IMG/VR virus record: IMGVR_UViG_3300042923_001833
Coordinates: 1 to 36,993 of that record
Source: a virus
Direction: 5' to 3' (one strand)
DNA length: 36,993 nt
The notes beneath the pieces are model-generated. The model was given only the letters and a program-made list of their open reading frames with translations. It searched no databases and was not told where the DNA came from. A program made the translations under genes and the position numbers. Of this stretch, positions 1 to 35,925 are shown piece by piece; position 1 is the stretch's first letter; the number at the start of each line of letters is the position of its first letter.

Positions 1-830
1 GTGGATATTCTGAAAAAGAGTATCTAAAATCAGCGATTCATCTGCGTGCTCTTAGTTACGAGGAAAATCCCATCGATTATGATGAACTGGAAAAAGTACT
101 GGCGGAAGCGATACATATGATACATTGTGATCGAAAAAAGCAGGAAGAGGCAATCTTGCAGGAACGTCTGGTAAAGAATTTTCCCTTACTTAAAAACGAA
201 ATAGCTCTTAAGCTAATAACAAATTATCAGGATACACAACCTTCTTTTAATTATACTCTTCTGGGAATTAAGCCAGAGTCCGACTTTGTTACGGTAGTAA
301 TTCAATTAGTTCAAGGTGAGAGTCTTACGAATCATGCTTATTTTGCACTTATGGAAGCAACCATGGAGCAGCTTATTAAGCAATTAGAGGTACATGGATT
401 AACGGGGATTACATCGGTAAAGGACGATCACTTTATTCTTTTACATATTACCACTCCGGTGGACTAGGTACATTTTCTGAAAAAAGAGGATTTCCTTAAG
501 GTTTTTTCGGAACTGGCGCTACTCTGGAGAAATATTTATTATTTTGTTGCCATATGGAAACAAGTCAGTAAAATTGAGAATATACCGGATTCCTACCGCA
601 GTGCAGTACTTACACTTCAGAAGATGTTTTTGCAGGATATGATCAGATTCTTTTATATGGCAGTAATAAGGGGGAAGCATATCTGCATTCGATGTGGGGT
701 CTATGATGAAACAAATTATTTTACTATTGTAGAAGAAAACAAGAGTGCTATTCAACGAGTTAAAACTCTCTAAGGAACAGATGGGTAAATTTATGAGCAT
801 ACCAGATATGAATCAACATAAAATATTTTG
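1..830 (+). pseudogene. Decayed YesN-like response regulator (host flank, partial)
   Basis: From base 3 to the TAG at 465-467 one frame is open off the left edge. Its start resembles the last part of a receiver domain (GYSEKEYLKSAIHLRALSY, then NPID where family members have KPID), followed by a coiled linker and a stretch like the middle domain of AraC-type two-component regulators. After the stop, similar sequence continues in shifted frames: IPDSYRSAVLTLQKMFLQ near 580-640, then YDQILLYGSNKGEAY near 640-685. This suggests frameshifts. No helix-turn-helix C-terminus appears before the tRNA remnant. It is probably a chromosomal gene remnant outside the prophage. The first 465 bases could still be read as a truncated protein. 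Confidence 0.55.
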
Positions 831-16498: not shown

Positions 16499-16585
16499 GG
16501 GAAGTTGGCAGAGTTTGGTCGAATGCAATTGGTATACTAACCGATGTGCCTAAATGGTGACGTGGGTTCAAATCCCACACTTCCA
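16499..16585 (+). tRNA. Class II tRNA-like gene with abnormal anticodon loop
   Basis: A cloverleaf can be drawn. The acceptor stem has 6 bp (GGAAGT 16500-16505 with ACTTCC 16579-16584). The D arm is GCA/TGC with a GG-containing loop, and the anticodon stem is ATTGG/CCGAT (16528-16532, 16541-16545). A class II variable arm follows (16546-16561) and then a perfect T arm (GTGGG-TTCAAAT-CCCAC, 16562-16578). The anticodon loop is TATACTAA, 8 bases (or 6 if T-A pairs), with no clear U33 or anticodon, and position 1-72 is G:A. No CCA is encoded. It is either a degenerate phage Leu/Ser-type tRNA, a frame-altering tRNA or a tRNA mimic. Confidence 0.55.
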
Positions 16586-16634
16586 ACTATGTGCGAATGA
16601 TAAAACAATACAAATAAATAAGGAAGGAGACGAC

Positions 16635-34002: not shown

Positions 34003-34467
34003 ATGAACAAGGTTAAAACAATGTTTACTGCATTTTTTTCAGCCCTGGCTGGATGGCTTGGAATTTTAGCTATACCGGTATTTGTGTTGGTACTATGCAA
34101 CGTTATTGATTATGGTACTGGCTTAGCAGCTGCTAAATATCGGGATCAGGAATTAAATAGTTATAAGAGTTTTAGGGGAATTGCTAAAAAGGTGTGCATG
34201 TGGTTATTGGTAGGTGTGGGAGCTATGATTGATTGGCTTATTATATATGCAAGCGATACAGTGGGTATAAAATTACCTGTAAGCTTTTTAATAGCCTGTA
34301 TCGTAGCCATATGGCTTATAGCAAATGAGATTATCTCGATACTTGAAAACGTGGTGGATATCGGTACTCCGATACCGCCTTTTTTAATGCCATTAGTCAA
34401 AAATATTAGAAAACAAGTAGAGGACAAGGCAGAAATCAAGGAGGCGAGCAAAGATGAACCTGACTAA
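34003..34467 (+). CDS. Phage holin (toxin secretion/phage lysis holin family)
   Basis: The 154-residue protein has membrane segments at about residues 15-37, 65-82 and 88-110, with YKSFRGIAKKVCMWLLVGVG and a NVVDIGTPIPPFL loop typical of the Cph1/Holin_4 family. The tail is charged. It permeabilises the membrane at lysis time. AAGAAGG lies upstream. The 3' end overlaps the endolysin by 14 bp. Confidence 0.92.
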   Translation: MNKVKTMFTAFFSALAGWLGILAIPVFVLVLCNVIDYGTGLAAAKYRDQELNSYKSFRGIAKKVCMWLLVGVGAMIDWLIIYASDTVGIKLPVSFLIACIVAIWLIANEIISILENVVDIGTPIPPFLMPLVKNIRKQVEDKAEIKEASKDEPD

Positions 34468-35254
34468 AAAGTACATGACAAAAAACCGGTGTTATACCAA
34501 CGGTACAAAAATTCAAGTGACAAAGCTTGTATTACATTCCACCGGATGCGCTCAACCGGATGCAGACGTACATATCGGTAATTGGAACACGGCTATATCT
34601 TCCGCTTGTCCCCATGCCTTTATCGAGACAGACAGAGTAGTCCAAACTCTTCCCTGGGATTTTAAAGGATGGCATGTCGGGTTAGGAAGTAAAGGTTCAT
34701 ATAATTCATGTAGCATTGGCGTTGAGATATGCGAACCAAAAGGCCATACATATAAAAACGGCAGTACTATGGTAAACTACGATGTAAAAAAGAACGAGGA
34801 ATACTTTGCCAAGGTTTACGAAAATGCCGTAGAATTATTCGCCCGTTTATGCTATGACTTCTTACTAGACCCGATGAAAGATATCTTATGTCATAGCGAA
34901 GTACACGCCTTAGGATATGGGTCTAATCATGGCGACGTAATGCACTGGTTTCCGAAGCACGGCAAGAGCATGGATACATTCAGAGCCGATGTCAGAGCTC
35001 GCATTATGGCTAACGCTGTGCCTAACAGTACGATTACTGTCAATTCATCCACTGATGATATAAACTGGCTTAAATCAAAGATTAACAAGGTTATAGATGG
35101 TATTTATCCAAAGCTTGACTTAAACGGTGTATATGATGCCAAAACAAGGATTGCTGTGTTGATAACTTGGGAGTTGTTTGGGTGGAATAAAGATGGTCAA
35201 GATGATGGATGGAGAGCCGGAGCAAAGACAATTAAAAGACTTACACAATATTAA
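34454..35254 (+). CDS. Endolysin, N-acetylmuramoyl-L-alanine amidase (Amidase_2)
   Basis: The 266-residue zinc amidase cuts the bond between muramic acid and the stem peptide. Visible features are the ligand His28 in LVLHSTG, HAFIETDRVVQTLPW, GWHVG, SIGVEICEP, and the SEVHALGYGSNHGDVMHW region with the other ligands. About residues 195-266 form a small C-terminal domain (DDINWLKSKINKVIDGIYPK to the end) that probably binds the wall. No signal peptide, so it needs the holin. A minus-strand ribozyme lies 59 bp beyond the stop. Confidence 0.93.
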   Translation: MNLTKKYMTKNRCYTNGTKIQVTKLVLHSTGCAQPDADVHIGNWNTAISSACPHAFIETDRVVQTLPWDFKGWHVGLGSKGSYNSCSIGVEICEPKGHTYKNGSTMVNYDVKKNEEYFAKVYENAVELFARLCYDFLLDPMKDILCHSEVHALGYGSNHGDVMHWFPKHGKSMDTFRADVRARIMANAVPNSTITVNSSTDDINWLKSKINKVIDGIYPKLDLNGVYDAKTRIAVLITWELFGWNKDGQDDGWRAGAKTIKRLTQY

Positions 35255-35312
35255 ATTATCAAAGTACATTCTATGATAAAAGTGGCGGCGATTATCCACT
35301 ATGCCGACGGGT

Positions 35313-35372
35313 TCCCGTGACCTCCTATATGGAGGTTTCGGCTGTTGCCCGGACAGCCATCATCAGACGGGA
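35313..35372 (-). ncRNA. Type I hammerhead self-cleaving ribozyme
   Basis: On the minus strand: stem I 5' arm TCCCGT (35372-35367), core CTGATGA (35366-35360), one extra T (35359), stem II GGCTGT/ACAGCC (35358-35353 with 35345-35340) with loop CCGGGCA, core GAAA (35339-35336), stem III CCTCC/GGAGG with loop ATATA (35335-35321), then GTC as the cleavage triplet ending at 35319 (G is the last stem III base), and stem I 3' arm ACGGGA (35318-35313). Cleavage is predicted between 35319 and 35318. All conserved core bases are present. The only deviation is the extra U between A9 and stem II. It begins directly after the TAA of the 35373-35564 gene. Confidence 0.9.
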
Positions 35373-35564
35373 TTAAAACACAGGATTTGCCTTGCTTAAT
35401 TCACATTCTCCGTATTTTTCTAAGTGAGCTTTTTCGTAAGCTGTAAAAAATTCCTGTTCAGTTTCAAATCCAACATTGTGCAGTTCTTCTCTGATTTCAT
35501 CATCCATAAAACCTACTGCAACTTCAAAATCAATTTCTTTTCCATTCATGTTAACGATCATCAT
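35373..35564 (-). CDS. Small acidic protein (63 residues) linked to the ribozyme
   Basis: It starts MMIVNMNGKEIDFEVAVGFM and has DDEIREELHNVG and EQEFFTAYEKAHLEKYGE. I recall this type of small acidic protein from Firmicute mobile elements, but no function is known to me. GGAGG precedes the ATG at 8 bp. Its promoter (TTGAAT/TATAAT) carries operator 1. The mRNA would be cut by the hammerhead 53-54 nt after the stop codon, leaving a 3' end in the ribozyme. It is divergent from the RHH gene and convergent with the endolysin. It may be an inhibitor or the partner of the RHH protein. Confidence 0.75.
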   Translation of the reverse strand: MMIVNMNGKEIDFEVAVGFMDDEIREELHNVGFETEQEFFTAYEKAHLEKYGECELSKANPVF

Positions 35565-35608: not shown

Positions 35609-35637
35609 ATTATATACTAACGCAAGTATATATTCAA
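35609..35637 (-). promoter_or_regulatory. Promoter of the 63-residue gene with operator 1
   Basis: On the minus strand, TTGAAT (35637-35632) and TATAAT (35614-35609) are 17 bp apart. ATACTAACGCAAGTAT (35614-35629) fills the spacer and is nearly the reverse complement of operator 2, so binding would block this promoter. Confidence 0.75.
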
Positions 35638-35682: not shown

Positions 35683-35715
35683 ATACTTGCGTAAGTATAT
35701 CCATTGTTATATAAT
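35683..35715 (+). promoter_or_regulatory. Promoter of the RHH gene with operator 2
   Basis: TTGCGT (35687-35692) and TATAAT (35710-35715) have 17-bp spacing. Operator 2, ATACTTGCGTAAGTAT (35683-35698), has 6-bp palindromic arms and covers the -35. It suggests autoregulation by the RHH protein. Confidence 0.75.
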
Positions 35716-35736
35716 AAATACGAAAGGCGGTGTGAT

Positions 35737-35925
35737 ATGGATAGAAAAGGAACTGCAGCCACCAAGGCGAAGAACAAGTATAACCTAAATAATTACGATA
35801 GATTATATCCATATGTAGAAAAAGGCAAGAAACAATACTACGAATTAGAAGCCAAAAGGCAAGGATACGAAAGCTTTAATCAATTTATTATTGATGCAAT
35901 CGAAGAAAAGATAAAAAGAGCATAA
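35737..35925 (+). CDS. Ribbon-helix-helix (Arc/CopG-like) regulator
   Basis: The 62-residue protein starts MDRKGTAATKAKNKYNLNNY. A strand containing YPYVEKGKKQYYELEAKRQG is followed by SFNQFIIDAIEEKIKR, the RHH layout seen in many small phage and plasmid regulators. ATG 35737 is preferred, as AAAGGCGG lies 6 bp upstream. Earlier in-frame ATG 35704 falls inside the promoter. It probably binds the two ATACTT-type operators and represses both divergent genes. Confidence 0.82.
   Translation: MDRKGTAATKAKNKYNLNNYDRLYPYVEKGKKQYYELEAKRQGYESFNQFIIDAIEEKIKRA

Follow-up and report, generated by a model that had tools for sequence, protein, structure and literature searches.

The window, as we call the whole 36,993-nt stretch of viral DNA analysed here, carries on its minus strand a small anti-CRISPR gene that faces a convergent lysis gene. 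The 63-residue gene (35373-35564, minus strand) belongs to the AcrIC5 family (Pfam PF22147, 69.4 bits for a cut-off of 27, E 2.9e-19), and by sequence its product is an AcrIC5 anti-CRISPR, predicted to inhibit type I-C CRISPR-Cas. Type I-C Cas8c is present in several congeneric genomes and was not found in this genome, which is incomplete. The gene is preceded by a predicted promoter, TTGAAT-17-TATAAT (35609-35637, minus strand, 10 of 12 consensus matches), inside which lies an operator-like inverted repeat of 18 nt (35612-35629), 94% complementary to a second copy at 35683-35700. Beyond it, a divergent small gene (35704-35925, plus strand, likely ATG at 35737) falls in PHROG 13890, of unknown function, and has no Pfam match. 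Phage Castelnaud has at this position an Arc-like gene, which passes the Arc model, and by analogy the divergent gene of the window is a putative regulator resembling the ribbon-helix-helix genes found there in related loci. On the other strand, an amidase (endolysin) gene (34454-35254, plus strand, PF01510 Amidase_2) ends against the boxA-like element described below. A preliminary description of this DNA had placed a ribozyme here in a lysis-adjacent region; this is right as to position, but the lysis genes are on the other strand, and the gene that precedes the ribozyme is an anti-CRISPR gene. The identity of that gene, its promoter, the operator and the divergent gene had escaped it. Elsewhere, mid-prophage, a tRNA-like sequence with a long inserted region (16499-16586, plus strand) scores 35 bits with Rfam.

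A hammerhead variant and its relatives

Directly after the TAA stop codon of the acr gene (35375-35373), a type I hammerhead ribozyme occupies 35372-35313 of the minus strand. Stem I opens with UCCCGU (35372-35367), followed by the core CUGAUGA (35366-35360), an extra U between A9 and stem II (35359), GGCUGU of stem II (35358-35353), the loop II CCGGGCA (35346-35352), ACAGCC closing stem II (35345-35340), GAAA (35339-35336), CCUCC of stem III (35335-35331), AUAUA, GGAGG (35325-35321), UC and finally ACGGGA (35318-35313), the second strand of stem I. Stem III is extended by the A15.1-U16.1 pair, and the predicted cleavage site, with the expected UH, lies after C35319 of the GUC triplet (35319/35318). 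As judged by fold and covariation, the three stems surround the core and stem I is the open one, the arrangement of type I. All the elements named in the preliminary description were recovered at the same positions, as was the abutment of stem I on the stop codon, and the support for stems I-III among relatives that it had proposed as a check is present in 53 hammerheads. A 67-nt segment folds into exactly stems I-III (-25.5 kcal/mol, z -3.0), but a longer 97-nt fold, in which pseudoknots are left out, favours another structure. A loose core pattern hits a single site in the window, for 0.13 expected in shuffles. Our own covariance model gives the window hammerhead 78.8 bits, a score that is not independent because this 53-sequence model contains it.

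A search pattern in which nothing but the core and the junction-closing pairs was fixed returned 40 viral contigs and 16 genome contigs. In the alignment of 53 distinct hammerheads, 90.5% of cells are paired and 17 of 23 pairs change on both sides, with 209 both-side-changed cells where shuffles give 59.6 +/- 5.9. The alignment reaches a covariation score of 0.458, compared with 0.123 in shuffles (none of 500 reaches the observed value) and at most 0.108 in slid controls. The core is invariant in all 53, part of it being fixed by the pattern, and the covarying columns fall outside the letters so fixed. Because of this covariation, a chance origin of the hammerhead is excluded. Nearly all relatives, moreover, have loop II paired with the 3′ tail that succeeds stem I; in the window, CGGG of the loop faces CCCG at 35308-35311 (minus strand). 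These pairs covary as well (GGG/CCC in the window, elsewhere GGU/ACC, GGA/UCC, GGC/GCC, CGU/ACG and GAC/GUC). A pseudoknot contact between stems I and II is common in hammerheads and needed for speed (PMC3088659), and the loop II-tail pairing corresponds to it. By its covariation, this tertiary pseudoknot, overlooked in the preliminary description, is part of the hammerhead.

The extra U had been regarded as unusual. With the U, the pattern is found in 40 viral contigs, and without it in 5, a count valid only for hammerheads having the junction pairs of the window. On this sequence comparison the U is the usual state in this phage group, and L096, L099 and L122 are natural members lacking it, L099 having the same stem II and loop as L054, a member with the U. 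In Rfam scans at gathering and permissive thresholds, none of the hammerhead families reached even E = 10 in 251 nt of the region, and a whole-genome search with Hammerhead_1 gave no match. Nor did the Rfam hammerhead models match any hammerhead in 36 loci holding relatives, in scans that did recover twister, twister-sister, pistol and RAGATH-5. Since relatives without the U also go unmatched, the U alone is not the reason. A match to Rfam is a practical criterion outside the structural definition, and we take its absence to show where the models fall short for this variant; as a test of it, the Hammerhead_1 search once suggested for this locus gives a false negative, and the Rfam models in use miss an entire variant of phage hammerheads. 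The silence of Rfam and a U inserted at the core-stem junction could suggest a chance or decayed sequence devoid of activity. Set against the covariation of 53 relatives and a core that none of them has altered, if partly by construction of the search, such an inactive remnant is very improbable. We consider the element, carried by a prophage whose host is an uncultured Clostridium relative of gut type, to be very probably a working, self-cutting hammerhead. Members also occur in cultured systems. Phage Castelnaud (ON453903; recorded host Flavonifractor plautii) holds one, and the plasmid pSSP59 of Sporomusa sphaeroides DSM 2875 (L173, about 1505-1570) carries between small genes the same variant, extra U included and with GUA as cut site, a simpler relative.

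The downstream pseudoknot and boxA-like element

The tail is followed by an H-type pseudoknot (35281-35306, minus strand), made of a CGGC/GCCG stem (35306-35303 with 35289-35286) and a crossing AGUGG/CCACU stem (35300-35296 with 35285-35281). The same succession of hammerhead and pseudoknot exists in 13 distinct loci, window included, which is a small sample. Over these loci pairing is kept in all 117 cells (100%). Both partners vary in 4 of the 9 pairs, and covariation scores 0.340, where shuffles give 0.084. The crossing 5-bp stem appears as AGUGG/CCACU, AGAGG/CCUCU, CAGGG/CCCUG, CGGGG/CCCCG or CGUGG/CCACG.

Further downstream lies the boxA-like element UGUACUUUGAUAAUUUAA (35251-35268, minus strand). 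Its motif UGYACNUUGA is found 46-53 nt past the cleavage site in 12 of the 13 loci; L122 has hammerhead and pseudoknot without it, and boxA is therefore not obligatory. In the window, its first 10 nt are identical to the boxA of the 16S-23S spacer of an order-mate, TGTACTTTGAAAACTAAACA, and two further versions, TGTACTTTGA and TGCACCTTGA, are shared letter for letter by modules and 16S-23S spacers. Upstream of 16S, the pattern gives one match at 105-187 nt in 11 of 17 rRNA loci, the expectation being about 0.13 per 350 nt. One genome with a module of its own (L088), Pseudoflavonifractor An507, displays GTGTACCTTGTAAATTAAACAA 181 nt before 16S. The element, having the rRNA boxA sequence of the host clade, is by this sequence identity a boxA.

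No Rfam family matches the downstream element, and a scan of 392 genomes of the order for the pseudoknot without hammerhead returned only the window and one weak match that resembles mainly the boxA part. Ribozyme, pseudoknot and rRNA-type boxA form a larger RNA module, apparently undescribed and present in at least a dozen related phages. Both downstream parts are absent from the preliminary description.

Genes around the hammerheads

An upstream gene is present in 41 relatives; its stop codon falls within -4 to +1 of stem I in 24 of them and is the UGA of the hammerhead core itself in 9, hence tight against stem I in 33. Such strict placement fits an acr mRNA whose 3′ end would be set by cleavage. 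The relatives fall in two groups. Most sit between two co-directional genes, the next start being typically about 25-80 nt downstream, as expected for the splitting of a polycistronic RNA. In 9-10 of the 13 loci with the full succession, the module is the last element of a small accessory operon, and what comes next on the opposite strand is a lysis gene, directly or after Rha (Amidase_2, Amidase_3, holin, CHAP, peptidase M15, PG-binding). A co-directional gene comes next in L078, L085, L086/L088 and L093, and none follows the module in the window. Two operons of this kind in G003 are cut off by contig breaks that fall inside the hammerhead.

Small orphan genes precede the 13 modules, with AcrIC5 in the window and a Csx16-like gene in L122 (PADLOC E 3.4e-4, below the Pfam cut-off). 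Anti-defence genes account for 6 of 66 hammerhead-flanking proteins (AcrIC5, Csx16-like and four ArdC-like), against none in the listed families among 91 control ORFs (p 0.005), or 3 of 66 against none when only matches above the Pfam cut-off are kept (p 0.07); this enrichment, drawn from sequence matches, is suggestive only. We also examined the idea that hammerheads are a family trait of AcrIC5 genes and rejected it, none of the 15 other AcrIC5 loci fetched having one; the ribozyme therefore tracks operon position and not this acr gene.

The ArdC-like anti-restriction genes lie directly beside hammerheads in L040 (4894-6097), L053 (281-1280), L092 (4969-5387) and L048 (329-915), two of the four being below the Pfam cut-off; those of L040 and L048 are bracketed by a second ribozyme-family match (twister-sister, RAGATH-5). 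In all, the loci of hammerhead relatives contain 11 matches to other ribozyme families (twister, twister-sister, pistol, RAGATH-5), every one on the strand of the hammerhead and 0.2-3.5 kb away. In L040, L048 and L077 such a match also lies beyond the gene downstream of the hammerhead, so that single genes are bracketed by predicted self-cleaving RNAs, as reported for prophages (PMC3088659). One contig, L062, combines a ROOL RNA (1-556, minus strand) with a hammerhead, a pistol and two twister ribozymes.

Two other recurrent features were observed in these operons. L071 (2832-3176), L085 (6961-7353) and L012 (-557 to -204 from the hammerhead) share an upstream orphan family with an 'LNHVALNAWI'-like core; its L071 member has no Pfam match, and the family is a candidate new anti-defence family. 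A short hairpin-like intercistronic motif, GGTTTCCGGTCATCCTTWAACYGGA, separates small accessory-operon genes in L011, L012, L101 and L133 (about -844, -190, -462 and -230 from the hammerhead, respectively) and is absent from the operon of the window.

Proposed function and relation to known systems

Hammerhead cleavage leaves a 2′,3′-cyclic phosphate and a 5′-OH. We propose, with a probability of about 0.6, that the locus is an operator-controlled AcrIC5 operon in which cleavage fixes the mRNA 3′ end and frees an RNA headed by the pseudoknot and boxA. The operator-controlled promoter would drive a short operon encoding AcrIC5, and the transcript would run into the hammerhead, its loop II locked to the 3′ tail, and cut itself after C35319. 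The upstream product would be an acr mRNA with a defined 3′ terminus that stems II and III and the cyclic phosphate close off. The downstream product would begin with a 5′-OH and the compact pseudoknot, followed by boxA. Since boxA elements bind NusB-S10 (for example PMC4807359), this one would load these factors on the polymerase. The ribozyme would thereby uncouple the anti-CRISPR message from RNA transcribed past it, while pseudoknot and boxA would preserve the downstream RNA and sustain transcription. In published tests, phage hammerheads were active both in vitro and in E. coli, cleaving at high speed thanks to pseudoknots (PMC3088659; PMC11300833). The observed part of this scheme comprises anatomy, conservation, covariation, spacing and gene identity; we count in its favour the covariation, the placement of stops, the same-strand ribozymes, the spacing and rRNA match of boxA, AcrIC5 itself and the promoter with its operators. 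The 97-nt fold, L122 without boxA, the window without a co-directional gene and the 15 other AcrIC5 loci without a hammerhead count against it.

A convergent lysis gene is next in 9-10 of 13 loci and no terminator was found on the minus strand between boxA and the amidase, so that boxA-modified polymerase might pass the cut site into the lysis genes, the pseudoknot-headed antisense RNA repressing endolysin and holin while the accessory operon is on. We hold this antisense control of lysis to be unlikely, as the next gene is co-directional in L078, L085, L086/L088 and L093 and the position may simply be the usual accessory-gene site of the prophage. Slightly less doubtful is that the pseudoknot is a 3′-end or nuclease-block element and the boxA-like letters Rho-shielding or an accidental remnant, the ribozyme being only a 3′-end former. 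The UUUU that follows S2′ of the pseudoknot in most members is terminator-like, and 9-10 of 13 modules end an operon, but L086 and L093 have GAUGAUAUA in place of UUUU, and 12 of 13 preserve both the letters and the spacing of boxA.

The gene order also recalls the acr-racr locus of Bifidobacterium, where an RNA anti-CRISPR (Racr) is found 11 nt after AcrIC5 (PMC10651486). However, congeneric type I-C repeats (GTCGCACCCTTTACGGGTGCGTGGATTGAAAT and relatives) have no more than short stretches such as GTGGAT in common with the module, and the pseudoknot conserves pairing, not sequence. A mimic of the type I-C repeat, which the module does not resemble in this genus, is largely refuted and most improbable. 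As an extension of our preferred reading, cleavage followed by pseudoknot- and boxA-assisted transcription, and one that we hold to be rather unlikely, hammerhead, H-type pseudoknot and boxA may together be a composite RNA regulator of a new kind in temperate phages. The anti-defence mRNA would be freed by self-cleavage, and pseudoknot and boxA would make the polymerase processive, often antisense through lysis genes, possibly tying counter-defence to lysis timing.

Hammerheads are already known from prophages, along with their loop pseudoknots and neighbouring genes such as ardA. Those of type I described earlier (PMC3088659) share with ours the core, the three stems, the loop pseudoknot between stems I and II, the intergenic location in prophages and counter-defence neighbours, theirs being ardA in Agrobacterium and Legionella. 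Ours differ by the extra U after A9 as group norm, the failure of Rfam models to match them, the downstream H-type pseudoknot and boxA, and the position at the 3′ end of an anti-CRISPR operon. In the pseudoknot hammerhead of PMC11300833 the core is likewise stabilised by a pseudoknot, but there it replaces helix II, whereas ours keep helix II whole and use its loop to pair with the 3′ tail. The boxA of rRNA operons and lambda nut sites also adjoins RNA structure, and ours has the 10-nt identity to an rRNA-spacer boxA; here it follows a predicted self-cleaving ribozyme and H-type pseudoknot on the 3′ side of an operon, not in a leader. With acr-aca operons and the acrIC5-racrIC1 locus (PMC10651486) the window shares an AcrIC5 gene, a neighbouring small regulator and a structured RNA right after acr, except that this RNA is a ribozyme module and not a CRISPR-repeat mimic, and the regulator is divergent. 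In the open-access literature searched, whose coverage is incomplete, we found no paper joining hammerheads with boxA in phages, nor natural hammerheads with anti-CRISPRs; the composite module and the anti-CRISPR link appear to be new.

The role of bacterial and phage hammerheads has been named as an open question (PMC6155905). The group described here offers a concrete, testable setting for it, in which a ribozyme is fixed after an anti-CRISPR message and coupled to a conserved pseudoknot and to what is, by its letters, a host antitermination signal. With members in phage Castelnaud and in the plasmid of S. sphaeroides, the group is open to study.
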